20,953 nt of DNA from a virus, in IMG/VR virus record IMGVR_UViG_3300018421_000272, positions 1 through 20,953 of that record. One strand, 5' to 3'. The notes beneath the pieces were generated by a model. The model had not been told where the DNA came from. It saw only the letters and a program-made list of their open reading frames with translations, and did no database searches. The position numbers were made by a program, and so were the translations under genes. Below are positions 16,657-20,953 of this stretch, piece by piece. Numbering within the stretch: position 1 is the first letter of the stretch; the number at the start of each line of letters is the position of its first letter.

Positions 16657-16807
16657 TAAAAAGAAACTGATAAAAGCACTGAAGGGTGAATACGAAGAAA
16701 AGATGACAAAGTCTCAGATATTTGACATGTTCAAAAACCCGCCCACACAGGAAGAGTGGTTGAGAGGCTACAACGAATGGAAAAGGAAACAACTTGCTAA
16801 CGATTAA
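16643..16807 (+). CDS. small 54-aa protein between gp47 and gp46, unknown function
   Basis: ATG at 16643, TAA at 16805-16807. It overlaps the end of gp47 and the start of gp46 by 14 bases each, and fills exactly the 137-base gap between them, which makes a real gene likely. The product is highly charged and Lys-rich at its start (MSRISKKKLIKALKGEYEEK), with an aromatic acidic/basic helix later (EEWLRGYNEWKRK). There is no signal or membrane segment. No Shine-Dalgarno is obvious; translation probably relies on ribosomes finishing gp47. T4 and its relatives carry small open frames near 46/47, but I cannot assign homology. A helper or modulator of the nuclease is only a guess from position. Confidence 0.75.
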   Translation: MSRISKKKLIKALKGEYEEKMTKSQIFDMFKNPPTQEEWLRGYNEWKRKQLAND

Positions 16808-18569
16808 AGAACTTACAGTAAAAAACTTCATGAGCGTGGGCAACCAGGCACAGGCCATAAACTTCTCCAACAAAAGCCTTGTGTTGGTGATAGGTGAGAA
16901 CATGGACCTAGGAGGCGATGACGCAGGTGCAAGAAACGGAACAGGTAAGACCACAATCATAAACGCATTGTCATATGTGTTCTACGGTGAGGCACTCACA
17001 AACATCAGGAGAGACAATCTCGTGAACAAGACCAACGAGAAAGGCATGATGGTAAGTGTGAAGTTCATAAAGAACAACATCACATACACAATAGAGCGTG
17101 GACGTAAACCACAGATATTCAGATTCTACGCCAACGACATAGAACAGAAGACAGACGCAAACGAGGCACAAGGTGAGAACAGGGAGACGCAGGTGGAGAT
17201 CAACAAACTGCTGGGCATGACCCATGCCATGTTCAAAAACATAGTGGCCTTGAACACATACACGCAACCGTTCCTGTCAACAAAACAGGCAGAGCAACGT
17301 GAGATAATCGAGCAACTGTTGGGAATAACACTGCTGTCACAAAAGGCGGATTTACTCAAAGAAAAACAAAAGTCAACAAAACAACTGCTGACTGAAGAAA
17401 AACTGAAACTGGATGCCATGAATGCGTCCAACGAAAAGATACAGGAATCCATAGAAAGCCTGAAGATAAGATCAAACGCTTGGATCAAACAGAAGGAAGA
17501 GGACATAGCAAACTTCCGAGATGCGATAGCGGAACTTGAAAAGGTGGACATAAAAGCAGAACTGGAAGCACACAAGAAACTGCAACAACACAACGAGATG
17601 CAGACAGCACTGCGTGGACTAGAGAAAGAAAAAGCATATCACGAACACAGCCTCACAAAGGCGGAAAACAATGTTGAGAAGACAAAAACAGACCTACAGT
17701 TCGCAGAACAACAGAAGTGTCCTACTTGTGAACAGGAACTGCACGACGACAAGCACACACACCTGCAGGACAAACTGAAGACACAACTGACAGAATCAAC
17801 AGACTACGCAAATCAACTCAAGGACGATCTTGCAAAAATACAACAGGGCATAGACGAGATCGGAGACCTAGGGCAGATACCAGACACCTACTATGACACC
17901 ATAGATGAGGCATACAACCACAAGGGATCACTACAGGATTTGAAGAGACAGTTAGAGAGGACAGAGAAACAGGAAAACACATACGCCGAGCAGATAGAGG
18001 AACTAGAGAAGAAAGCCATACAGAAGATAGACTACGAGAAGGCCAACGAACTGGAGGACCTACACAGGCACCAGGACTTCCTGTACAAATTATTGACTGC
18101 AAAAGACAGTTTCATAAGAACAAGGATCATAGAACAAAACTTGACTTACCTGAATCAACGTCTAGCATTCTTCCTCGGTAAAGTCAAACTGCCACACACG
18201 GTCACATTCCAGCCAGACCTTAGTGTGCGTATCGAGGAACTGGGCAGGGAGTTGGACTTCGACAACCTGTCGAGGGGAGAGCGAAACAGGTTGATACTCA
18301 GCATGAGCTGGGCGTTCAGAGACGTGTGGGAAAGTTTATATCAACAGATCAACTTGCTGTTCATAGATGAACTTGTGGATGCTGGCATGGACATATCGGG
18401 TGTAGAGAGCTCAATGGCTGTGCTCAAGGACATGTCGAGGACACAGAAGAAGAACATATTCCTGATCTCACACAAGGACGAACTGGTAAGCAGGGTGAAC
18501 TCGGTGCTGAAGGTCGTCAAGGAAAACGGATTCACAAACTACGCCAACGACGTAGACATAATCGTTTAA
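16794..18569 (+). CDS. gp46: recombination endonuclease subunit gp46 (Rad50-like SMC ATPase)
   Basis: ATPase partner of gp47. Walker A NGTGKT is at 48-53; long coiled-coil arms run about 160-300 and 315-420 around a zinc hook CPTC (309-312). The ABC signature LSRGE is at 492-496, Walker B LLFIDE at 521-526, and the switch histidine at 560 (LISH). The length of 591 fits T4 gp46 (560). The start is TTG at 16794: there is no in-frame ATG before the preceding stop at 16761, and AAAGGA sits upstream at good spacing. It overlaps the 54-aa gene by 14 bases. Its stop overlaps the stop of the convergent minus-strand gene inside TTAA. Confidence 0.97.
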   Translation: MLTIKELTVKNFMSVGNQAQAINFSNKSLVLVIGENMDLGGDDAGARNGTGKTTIINALSYVFYGEALTNIRRDNLVNKTNEKGMMVSVKFIKNNITYTIERGRKPQIFRFYANDIEQKTDANEAQGENRETQVEINKLLGMTHAMFKNIVALNTYTQPFLSTKQAEQREIIEQLLGITLLSQKADLLKEKQKSTKQLLTEEKLKLDAMNASNEKIQESIESLKIRSNAWIKQKEEDIANFRDAIAELEKVDIKAELEAHKKLQQHNEMQTALRGLEKEKAYHEHSLTKAENNVEKTKTDLQFAEQQKCPTCEQELHDDKHTHLQDKLKTQLTESTDYANQLKDDLAKIQQGIDEIGDLGQIPDTYYDTIDEAYNHKGSLQDLKRQLERTEKQENTYAEQIEELEKKAIQKIDYEKANELEDLHRHQDFLYKLLTAKDSFIRTRIIEQNLTYLNQRLAFFLGKVKLPHTVTFQPDLSVRIEELGRELDFDNLSRGERNRLILSMSWAFRDVWESLYQQINLLFIDELVDAGMDISGVESSMAVLKDMSRTQKKNIFLISHKDELVSRVNSVLKVVKENGFTNYANDVDIIV

Positions 18570-19375
18570 ATCCTGTTAAGAATATTCGCAACACCTATAG
18601 GTTTTCCATTTTTCTTGGCAACGTGTATAAAGTCGGCCTGCTCTAGGTCAAGTTCATGGCAGATTTGCTTGTAGTGATCCTCATGGTTATCCCAGGCGTG
18701 ATCTATATGTATGTTATCCATTACGAAATTGGCACAGTTAATAGTGTTGAGATTAACCCACCCGCTGGCGTTACGCACAGTAATACTGTCTATGGTTTTC
18801 TGTCTTGAAAATCTTATACCAAATTTGTTCCACTGGAATCCTGTCTTTGTCAAACTGAATCCTACGGTCTTGATGTTAGGATGGCTGACATCTAATTGCA
18901 TTCCGTTTGACGCTGTATACCAAGCGGCATCAAGGTGTATGTTAATATTTTTTGTTTCACACTCTTTCAAGAAATCTTTCCAATCGGGCCTATTGTTGCC
19001 ATGGTACCAGTTTGGCAATGAAACTATCACAGGAACGTTCTCCTCCAACTCGCCAACAGAGTTTTCCGTTTTACCAAGTAATTTGTAGTAGGAGTAATCG
19101 TTTTTGATGATCTGATATTTCTTCTCTTTCATTAGAAAGTTGTCAATGTAATCGGTACAACCATATATCACATCCAACTTGGGAAAATTTTCAATACCGT
19201 ATACGGAATTCCGTTTGCTCGACAACAACCATTCCGCCGCCTTTTCGGTCACATTTGTGAGGGTGGCGTCGCCCGCGTAGTCACTGTGTAACCAGTCATG
19301 TTTCACTTGCCTGATCTTCGTGTCTTCTATATGTATCAACTTATCTGTAAGAAGATCCTCACGAATATCTAACAT
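18566..19375 (-). CDS. short PLP-dependent (aminotransferase fold I)-like protein
   Basis: A 269-residue protein read from the ATG at 19375, chosen because GGAAGGA lies just upstream. An in-frame ATG 14 codons earlier (19417) has no such signal and would deepen the overlap with the oxygenase. The layout resembles a fold-type I PLP enzyme: VIYGCTDYIDNFL (69-81) at the place of the phosphate-binding turn, PVIVSLPNWYHGN (115-127) like the PNNPTG loop, HLDAAW (147-152) like the Asp that binds the pyridine nitrogen (D149), and GFSLTKTG (172-179) with K177 at the Schiff-base lysine. It is much shorter than full aminotransferases (about 350-420), so it may be reduced or non-catalytic. It overlaps the oxygenase gene by 17 bases, so the two are probably co-translated. 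Substrate unknown. Confidence 0.5.
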   Translation of the reverse strand: MLDIREDLLTDKLIHIEDTKIRQVKHDWLHSDYAGDATLTNVTEKAAEWLLSSKRNSVYGIENFPKLDVIYGCTDYIDNFLMKEKKYQIIKNDYSYYKLLGKTENSVGELEENVPVIVSLPNWYHGNNRPDWKDFLKECETKNINIHLDAAWYTASNGMQLDVSHPNIKTVGFSLTKTGFQWNKFGIRFSRQKTIDSITVRNASGWVNLNTINCANFVMDNIHIDHAWDNHEDHYKQICHELDLEQADFIHVAKKNGKPIGVANILNRI

Positions 19376-19904
19376 AAAGGCTTTTCCTTCCGTTCTTTGA
19401 CAGGCGAGGAACTCCATGGAGGCTCTTGTCGTTGTTCACTAACGCATAGCCAAAGTTTCTCTTGAATTCAAAAGTGTGCAACTTGTTCTCTTCTTCATCG
19501 TAAAGACAGGTACCCTGGTTGTCGTCACTGAGGTATATTTGCACGTGCAACTTGATAATGTGATTGTCCCTGTGCGGCTCGCTGACATATCCTTCTCCGT
19601 CCACCCAGTAGTCCGCGGAGTCAAACTTGAGATCCATTCCAAATTTCTTACCCAGCGCCTCGGTGATCTTGCTGTTCATGAAAAAAATCCGTATCTTTTT
19701 CATTTCCTCATTTTGTTGTGCAAGGCTGACACGGTTGAGATGCTCTTGTCCTGTGACTTTTACATAATCAGACTCTTCTAAAACCTGTAGATTAAAATTT
19801 TCGCCAAAGAAATTTTCATATTGCTGAAATATTTTACCATCTAAATTTACCAAAGGTGCTTTTTCTATTGACCAAACCACTTCTTGTGTGCTTAAATTAA
19901 ACAT
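19359..19904 (-). CDS. 2-oxoglutarate/Fe(II)-dependent oxygenase
   Basis: A 181-residue dioxygenase-like protein. The double-stranded beta-helix core carries the iron triad PHRD (H111, D113) and LHGV (H163), and R173 in NGRKS for 2-oxoglutarate. The strands between (KLHVQIYLSDDNQGTCLYDE) match the prolyl-hydroxylase-like small phage oxygenases that are frequent in marine T4-like phages. Substrates of these are generally unknown; protein, nucleotide or sugar hydroxylation are all possible. It starts in a CATATG context without a Shine-Dalgarno. A TATAAT-like sequence lies just upstream on the minus strand, but no good -35. Downstream it overlaps the PLP-like gene, suggesting a two-gene unit. 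Confidence 0.85.
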   Translation of the reverse strand: MFNLSTQEVVWSIEKAPLVNLDGKIFQQYENFFGENFNLQVLEESDYVKVTGQEHLNRVSLAQQNEEMKKIRIFFMNSKITEALGKKFGMDLKFDSADYWVDGEGYVSEPHRDNHIIKLHVQIYLSDDNQGTCLYDEEENKLHTFEFKRNFGYALVNNDKSLHGVPRLSKNGRKSLYVRYS

Positions 19905-19948
19905 ATGTTAATTAATTATATCGTACGAAAATAGGAAGGAAAAAACAT
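19905..19948. promoter_or_regulatory. short divergent control region
   Basis: 44 bases between the oxygenase and H1-like starts, very AT-rich. It holds the palindrome TCGTACGA (19921-19928), a minus-strand TATAAT-like hexamer, and GGAAGGA for the rightward gene. Both genes start inside CATATG. No promoter can be called with certainty. Confidence 0.4.
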
Positions 19949-20143
19949 ATGTCAAATGAAACACATGAACAGATCATGACAGAGATACAAACTTACTCAG
20001 AAGAGAATGGTAAGTTCGTAGACAAAGGTGTCAAGGCTTCTGCCACTAGGGCTAGAAAGGCACTTGCCAACCTTGCTAAATTGATCAAAGCAAGAAGAAA
20101 AGAGATTCAAGAAGTTAAGAACGCGGCGAAAACCCAAGCGTAA
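19949..20143 (+). CDS. histone H1/Hc1-like small DNA-binding protein
   Basis: A 64-residue Lys/Arg/Ala-rich, all-helical protein. After a short acidic start, residues 22-58 (KFVDKGVKASATRARKALAN, then LAKLIKARRKEIQE) follow the pattern of bacterial Hc1/histone H1-like proteins: K-F-x-x-K-G-x-K-A-x-x-T-R-x-R-K-A-L-x-x-L, then R-K-E-I-Q. Hc1 proteins compact DNA or alter nucleoid structure. A strong Shine-Dalgarno (GGAAGGA) stands upstream, and a strong intrinsic terminator lies 25 bases after the stop, so it appears to be a monocistronic, well-expressed unit. Likely roles are binding host or phage DNA after infection or in the capsid; these are inference. Confidence 0.75.
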   Translation: MSNETHEQIMTEIQTYSEENGKFVDKGVKASATRARKALANLAKLIKARRKEIQEVKNAAKTQA

Positions 20144-20168: not shown

Positions 20169-20198
20169 ACCCCCGGCTTTCCAAGTTGGGGGTTTTTT
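20169..20198 (+). terminator. intrinsic terminator after the H1-like gene
   Basis: A GC-rich hairpin, left arm 20169-20179, three-base loop TCC, right arm 20183-20193, with two G-T wobbles and the rest Watson-Crick. It is followed by TTTTTT (20193-20198). The U-run lies only on the plus-strand side, so it mainly ends rightward transcription. Confidence 0.92.
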
Positions 20199-20601
20199 AT
20201 TTCCTGATTATTCCCTTACCGTGAACACGGACGCGGATGTGTCCGTTGTAGTAGTCATTAGATTCTAGCACCTTGCGGGCGAACTGCTCCCTGGCCTCGA
20301 TGTACGACAGTTCCGCCTTGGAGTAGCAGTAGAACAGTATCTCCCGTTGGAACTTGTCCTTGCCCAGTTTTAGTATATCCGCGGTCAGCTCGTCACTGCT
20401 TCCGTAGTAGTCGCGCCAATCAGAATCCACCTTGTACCTACGCTTGTTCTTCCTGCCCTTCAGTGGTGGTCGGCTTCGCTTGAACCTGGCCAACTTCTTG
20501 CCGATGTACATCCTGCCGTTCTCCAGATTGGTAATTTGGTAGACGAATCCCACCACATCATCTGGTAGTTGATCAACTGTCTTTTGTCCGTAAATCCACA
20601 T
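20197..20601 (-). CDS. GIY-YIG family endonuclease
   Basis: A 134-residue protein from the ATG at 20601; a TTG two codons upstream is a less likely start. The GIY-YIG core is FVYQITNLENGRMYIGKK (19-36), with FVY and YIG in place of GIY and YIG. It is followed by a basic segment (FKRSRPPLKGRKNKRRYK), DWRDYYGSS (61-69), a helix with the probable metal-binding glutamate (Y100-IEAREQF), and YYNGHI near the end. This compact form occurs in many phages as a free-standing nuclease, sometimes homing. It lies convergent to the H1-like gene, with its stop against the terminator's U-run. No Shine-Dalgarno is visible; TTTAAATA lies six bases upstream. It may cut host or competing phage DNA, or may be a selfish homing enzyme; nothing decides this. 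Confidence 0.8.
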   Translation of the reverse strand: MWIYGQKTVDQLPDDVVGFVYQITNLENGRMYIGKKLARFKRSRPPLKGRKNKRRYKVDSDWRDYYGSSDELTADILKLGKDKFQREILFYCYSKAELSYIEAREQFARKVLESNDYYNGHIRVRVHGKGIIRK

Positions 20602-20860
20602 TGACAATATTTAAAGCCAAAAAGATTGACCTTGAAATAAAACTAGTATAAACAAGTGCGATAGGCAAACTACAATTTCTTAAAAATTTCCAATAGGCAA
20701 ACATAGCATCGCAACCAGTGAGCAAGGAAATGCGGCTAACAAGCGACAGGTGAATCCTTAGATGCACACGGCAAAAAATGATGAGGCTCTTAGAAAAAGT
20801 TAATCCTCAGGTTTACCAAGAACTATTATACAAGGGTTTGGTAGGCTCGCGTTGTAATGA
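20602..20860. other. gene-poor segment with direct and inverted repeats
   Basis: No convincing reading frame on either strand in a genome otherwise packed with genes. It contains ATAGGCAAAC twice (20661-20670, 20693-20702), an inverted repeat TGAGG/CCTCA (20782-20786, 20805-20809), and TACCAA/TTGGTA (20814-20819, 20838-20843), the latter extendable outward by G-T and G-C pairs. A further GTTGT/ACAAC pair spans the 20851 region and about 20879-20883. It may be a structured RNA, an origin-like or regulatory region, or a gene remnant. No known RNA family could be matched. Confidence 0.4.
20626..20652 (+). promoter_or_regulatory. weak sigma70-like promoter into the right-edge segment
   Basis: TTGACC (20626-20631) and TATAAA (20647-20652) with a 15-base spacer, two short of the optimum. 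It faces right into the gene-poor segment. Low support. Confidence 0.25.
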
Positions 20861-20953
20861 ATGAGCAAATGGGTACAGCACAACCGCCCAACTACGGTAG
20901 CGATGTATAGTGACTGCGAACTCACCACAGGGTTCAAGTCGGTTCGGCTAGAA
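20861..20953 (+). CDS. possible start of a new gene, partial
   Basis: An ATG at 20861, directly after an in-frame TGA, opens 31 codons to the window edge (MSKWVQHNRPTTVAMYSDCE, then LTTGFKSVRLE). The composition looks protein-like, but there is no Shine-Dalgarno, and so short an open run is not significant. The sequence beyond the window would decide it. Confidence 0.3.
   Translation, partial: MSKWVQHNRPTTVAMYSDCELTTGFKSVRLE

Follow-up and report, generated by a model that had tools for sequence, protein, structure and literature searches.

Does the 2OG-Fe(II) oxygenase encoded next to a short PLP-type protein in a marine phage act together with its neighbour, and on what? Oxygenases rank among the most frequent unexplained genes of marine phages, and once one of them is tied to a specific PLP enzyme, often along with an amidinotransferase, a gene without a name becomes part of a pathway that can be tested. 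Our window, the whole stretch of 20,953 nucleotides that was analysed (IMG/VR record IMGVR_UViG_3300018421_000272), is a fragment of a T4-like marine phage. Baseplate-type genes on its minus strand are followed on the plus strand by genes for a gp55-like sigma factor, gp47 and gp46. The oxygenase and PLP-type genes, both on the minus strand with the oxygenase upstream, converge on gp46 from the right (Table 1).

Table 1. Features at the oxygenase/PLP locus, in window coordinates.
Feature	Position	Strand	Description
gp46/SbcC-like recombination nuclease subunit	16794-18569	+	convergent neighbour; position marker only
PLP-type gene	18566-19375	-	269 aa; predicted short fold-type-I PLP enzyme of an unannotated family
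Oxygenase	19359-19904	-	181 aa; predicted 2OG-Fe(II) oxygenase; triad H111/D113/H163 plus R173
Divergent intergenic stretch, 44 bp	19905-19948	.	between oxygenase and Hc1-like gene
Hc1-like small protein, histone H1-like	19949-20143	+	PF07432, E 3.9e-12
SegE-type GIY-YIG homing endonuclease-like gene	20197-20607	-	borders the variable slot

Both reading frames and the 17-base overlap between them, as given in the original prediction, were confirmed. The PLP-type frame can be read from a longer start at 19417 (18566-19417, minus strand); close relatives use the internal ATG at 19375, exactly where several family members begin, and from there the overlap with the oxygenase spans 19359-19375. The stops of the PLP-type gene and the convergent gp46 overlap by four bases (18566-18569). 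The 44-bp stretch upstream of the oxygenase is a probable control region shared with the divergent Hc1-like gene, which constantly accompanies the oxygenase in the gp46 lineage (34 loci) and whose product is lysine-rich and has at most a putative role in the pathway. The variable slot flanked by segE holds an amidinotransferase or a radical SAM gene in relatives; no amidinotransferase gene was seen in the window.

Neither gene was named by a Pfam, PHROG, NCBIfam or GenBank-phage match. Single-sequence searches of both proteins against Pfam, PHROG, NCBIfam, PADLOC and PDB gave nothing usable, and tblastn with the window proteins and two diverged PLP homologues found no match among 50,697 GenBank phages. 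Scanning IMG/VR with small alignments yielded 136 relatives of the PLP-type protein, of which 80 were kept, and 33 oxygenase loci. The resulting family alignments comprise 56 PLP sequences, down to 25% identity to the window protein, and 60 oxygenases.

The oxygenase had been credited with a complete iron triad. Indeed, H111-x-D113...H163 and R173 are invariant in all 60 sequences, among eleven invariant residues. An AlphaFold2 model built from the deep family alignment (pLDDT 94.0, pTM 0.90) matched 130 PDB chains in Foldseek, the best of them 2OG oxygenases: PasI (9ei6, TMq 0.73) and PolD, both at 13-14% identity, closely followed by protein hydroxylases of the PHD2 type. Tpa1 and the viral collagen prolyl hydroxylase were also among the matches. 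From this model, with its double-stranded beta-helix, HxD...H triad and 2OG-binding arginine, the protein is confidently predicted to have the 2OG-Fe(II) oxygenase fold. PasI, PolD and PHD2 (PF13640-like) share these features, including the counterpart of R173; the window protein differs from them in its overlapping PLP partner. At the sequence level 14 of 25 relatives reached PF13640, with a best E of 2.9e-4, no match to solved oxygenases exceeded chance, and the TET/JBP family was not among the listed Pfam matches.

For the PLP-type protein, D149 and K177 had been named as landmarks of a PLP fold, and both are invariant in the 56 homologues. The other invariant positions are W49, D68, G72, T74, Y94, Y96, P121, H147, W152, H165, P166, I168, S174, G186 and W228. 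The predicted active site comprises S174 and K177, the latter as internal aldimine lysine, D149 facing the pyridine nitrogen, the G72-C73-T74 loop and R188. A fold comparison, suggested with the original prediction as a check, placed the protein in PLP fold type I. The AlphaFold2 model from the deep family alignment (pLDDT 93.4, pTM 0.90) matched 733 PDB chains at E<=1e-3, and the best 50 were fold-type-I PLP enzymes only, headed by HisC (1uu1, E 3.7e-8), NifS, CobD and tyrosine aminotransferase. In a profile search the family Asp and Lys fell in register with those of valine-pyruvate aminotransferase 3g7q, at a weak E of 0.014. A viral homologue listed as 'uncharacterized protein' from an uncultured Caudovirales phage (A0A6J5KXV0) superimposed with a TM of 0.94 at 30% identity. 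The modelled large domain, the Schiff-base lysine that follows a strand and the pyridine-nitrogen aspartate at a strand end confidently point to fold type I, and both predicted enzyme classes were thus right. Since the fold is of this type, flavodoxin matches to the 'PNW..G..PDW' stretch were dismissed as chance local similarities.

The family is compact. HisC, CobD (L-threonine-O-3-phosphate decarboxylase) and NifS share its fold, the SxxK motif and a downstream GxR; they measure roughly 310-420 residues against 269 here, and the window protein is set apart by an HxDxAW motif and by a small domain cut to about 27 residues. These residues follow the long interdomain helix of the model, and the 56-sequence alignment shows no near-invariant arginine among them. 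The C-terminal small domain with a carboxylate-binding arginine that characterises the aspartate-aminotransferase type (class I/II) is therefore missing, and the label 'aminotransferase' is unjustified. The protein lacks most of the small domain and might be an enzyme with unusual catalysis or a derivative that is no enzyme at all, even though the residues of its active site are invariant. In sequence the family escapes Pfam (of 17 members, 4 touch PF00282, the best at E 0.0046), and no profile library used here recognised it. A scan of genome contigs turned up just two relatives; both lie on phage-like contigs that had been binned into MAGs of archaea and Pelagibacter, and the scan therefore showed no cellular parent.

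One 196.6-kb phage record carries a second, diverged copy of the PLP gene (G003 C1:185569-186360; L124 8558-9421). It has no oxygenase-family member nearby and no informative neighbours; it lies a few genes from open reading frames that, by sequence reading, resemble clamp-loader, UV-endonuclease and formate-dehydrogenase genes.

The original prediction held that the two proteins could act together and proposed their co-occurrence in other phages as a check. We examined 65 distinct PLP proteins, 36 of them in full context, with 2.5 kb or more of sequence on either side. In 31 of the 36 and in 54 of the 65, an oxygenase-family gene lay within 2.5 kb of the PLP gene; seeds from the PLP family alone keep out a bias towards the oxygenase, and the pooled 65 also include loci first found via the oxygenase. 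In long records (38-210 kb) searched over their whole length, an oxygenase-family gene adjoins the PLP gene in 14 of 16, counting the better of two hits in a 209.5-kb record whose second, weak hit lies elsewhere. Altogether, more than 100 aquatic phage contigs carry the pair.

Two phage lineages provide two genomic settings: one with gp46/gp47, segE and the Hc1-like gene, the other with helicase and primase genes. The description of the pair as inserted beside recombination genes thus holds for the first lineage and fails for the second. Two deep clades of the oxygenase tree match the settings. Across the settings the pair takes four gene orders, with both strand relations represented: the oxygenase upstream and overlapping, the PLP gene upstream, the two convergent, or an amidinotransferase gene between them. 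Shared lineage alone therefore does not explain the linkage. Pairwise identities within the two families also correlate (Mantel r 0.38, 0/2000 permutations; r 0.36 and 0.60 within settings), a correlation that partly reflects shared phage ancestry, and the rearranged orders are the stronger argument. The oxygenase and PLP genes are a real functional unit, widespread, conserved and unannotated, and co-occurrence across two lineages in several orders bears out the idea of joint action. As the pair has been kept together in dozens of different phages, the proteins probably catalyse linked steps on one substrate.

The partners of this unit are exchangeable. Among oxygenase-seeded loci in the gp46 setting, 21 have the PLP gene, 10 have an SDR-like gene and one (L025) has an oxygenase with neither. 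The SDR-like frame (159 aa, on the opposite strand; L018, L019, L022, L023, L026 and L028-L032) occupies the slot of the PLP gene between oxygenase and gp46; its putative identity was read from GGNGxLAN and YGLEK motifs, with no profile hit. Partners switched at least twice on supported branches, and five times by parsimony. One locus, L039, is a fossil of gene replacement: it keeps the probable 44-bp control region and the first ~24 oxygenase codons, followed by a stop, a gene of the c6 family and the PLP gene. An amidinotransferase gene lies near 35 of the 65 PLP genes. Its product is a clear member of the GATM/StrB1/SxtG family (E 5.5e-26 to GATM 2jdx) with the catalytic Cys-His-Asp set, C264, H159 and D161, invariant in 24 sequences. 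Radical SAM genes lie near 15 of the 65. Both kinds of gene are also present in phages that lack the pair.

The oxygenase remnant in L039 (10001-10072) reads MFNLSTQDVVLSIENATLVNLNGI before the stop, and its first seven residues are invariant in oxygenases of the gp46 lineage. The c6 family is itself unannotated, with about 160 residues and a 'YPEPWA...SPFY' signature (L066 7501-7980 and 26 relatives), and has no PDB sequence match. In the second lineage the c6 gene (160 aa) lies upstream of the PLP gene and overlaps its start. We rejected c6 as a part of the unit, as it is common elsewhere and 19 of 51 c6 loci lack the PLP gene.

Such turnover could also mean that two independent accessory genes with different substrates merely share an insertion hotspot, for example an oxygenase that drains 2-oxoglutarate to affect nitrogen signalling and an unrelated PLP enzyme. 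A draining role has been proposed for cyanophage oxygenases (PMC3037559), the contents of the gp46-segE slot are swapped among amidinotransferase, radical SAM, SDR-like and c30 genes, and L025 (an oxygenase without partner) and the solitary second copy in G003 fit this explanation as well. However, the pair is still joined in the second lineage, at another genomic place and in reversed and convergent orders, and the other hotspot genes associate less often with the PLP gene. We consider a shared hotspot rather unlikely.

What the pair acts on is a separate matter. Nucleotide or DNA modification was one option raised from the sequence: the oxygenase would oxidise a base or its precursor, the PLP enzyme would install or trim an amino substituent, and the phage DNA would be protected. 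Thymidine hypermodification is known to use PLP and radical SAM enzymes, and in the pathway represented by Pseudomonas phage M6 a PLP enzyme takes part, a likeness to our pair. Moreover, PasI and PolD, the best structural matches of the oxygenase, hydroxylate octosyl-acid nucleoside intermediates, albeit at the low identity given above and with PHD2-type enzymes close behind, and in both lineages the cassettes have replication or recombination genes next to them. Campylobacter phage IBB_35 belongs to a group with an amidinotransferase/radical SAM module, and its DNA is insensitive to endonucleases (PMC3322345).

Yet the genes of the known route were absent from the carriers. PF00303 (the thymidylate-synthase/hydroxymethylase family) and PF18723 and PF18724 (5-hmdU DNA kinase, HMUDK, and amino-acid:DNA transferase, ADDT) were found in 0 of 16 carrier records, including those of 196.6 and 209.5 kb, and Thy1 was absent too; these records may not be complete, and an entirely new route, such as direct base oxidation, would escape this test. 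In phage M6, our positive control, the thymidylate-synthase family member (gp58), HMUDK and ADDT were all found. The M6 PLP enzyme, gp52, belongs to PF00291 and fold type II and is unrelated to the PLP family of the window. DNA hypermodification by the pair is thus not supported, and we regard DNA modification as a less likely reading, indeed an improbable one. The combination of an oxygenase with a PLP enzyme in a phage need not imply hypermodified DNA.

In a protein-modification reading, which we consider equally improbable, the oxygenase would hydroxylate a virion, ribosomal or Hc1-like protein in the manner of prolyl or lysyl hydroxylases, and the modified residue would be processed further by the PLP enzyme. 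PHD2, Tpa1 and the viral collagen prolyl hydroxylase among the structural matches are consistent with such a role, as is the lysine-rich Hc1-like protein encoded divergently throughout the gp46 lineage. Nevertheless, the second lineage showed no Hc1-like gene close to the cassette, PLP enzymes that act on side chains within proteins are rare, and the substrates of GATM-family amidinotransferases are small amines or free amino acids.

We favour a co-inherited accessory enzyme pair that hydroxylates an amino-acid-like small molecule and then processes it with PLP, a reading that we give about an even chance of being correct. We infer catalytic activity, substrate and product, and take the order of the steps from chemistry. 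With Fe(II), O2 and 2-oxoglutarate, the oxygenase would place a hydroxyl group on an aliphatic carbon. Its substrate would be small and polar, most likely an amino acid or an amine made from one. The PLP enzyme would then attack this substrate at the carbon that bears the amine, using the Lys177 aldimine; the reaction might be a transamination, a decarboxylation or a retro-aldol cleavage. The original prediction had hydroxylation followed by transamination or derivatisation; transamination is one of several reactions that the fold allows. In about half of the carriers the glycine-amidinotransferase-family enzyme may add or remove a guanidino group, in others radical SAM enzymes may contribute, and in some relatives the SDR-like protein might take the place of the PLP enzyme. 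The product would probably not modify DNA but change host metabolism or decorate molecules of the virion or the host surface. A nucleotide is also among the possible substrates of the oxygenase, given that PasI and PolD work on substrates of the nucleoside type.

More tentatively, the cassette might be the core of an undescribed, natural-product-like phage pathway, founded on a new, truncated fold-type-I PLP family. In it the oxygenase, the minimal PLP enzyme, the amidinotransferase and sometimes radical SAM enzymes would make, during infection, an amino compound that is hydroxylated and may bear a guanidino group, and partners would be swapped between lineages. This broader proposal is possible, but we would not call it probable.

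The nearest described analogue is a module of Campylobacter phages CP220 and CPt10 with exchangeable radical SAM and glycine amidinotransferase genes (PMC2853527). It resembles our cassette in the family of its amidinotransferase, in its radical SAM enzymes and in the swapping of blocks. No 2OG oxygenase was found in that module, and its short PLP protein (262 aa, aminotransferase class I/II) was not matched by the profile of the window PLP family and was rejected as a member at the level of sequence. Cyanophage S-SCSM1 has 24 copies of 2OG oxygenases (PMC9602691); these and the oxygenases of S-SCSM2R belong to the same enzyme class as that of the window and are only remotely related to it. 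In S-SCSM2R an amidinotransferase gene is directly followed by an oxygenase gene (profile E 1.5e-5), and the stretch examined there held no member of the window PLP family. Our literature search on phage amidinotransferases with oxygenases, or in a pelagiphage context, returned nothing specific.

A non-coding stretch of ~390 nucleotides lies beyond segE, at 20608-20953 in the window, where it is cut by the window end, and at about 7512-7905 in L036. ARAGORN and Rfam returned nothing for it, and its single-sequence fold was no better than shuffles. It is conserved far better than nearby proteins, with 93-97% nucleotide identity to several phages, among them L027 (97%), whose PLP protein is only 38% identical, and 76 loci contain a match. 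A structured RNA is suggested by paired changes in helix-like segments, GAGG/CCTC against GGGG/CCCC.
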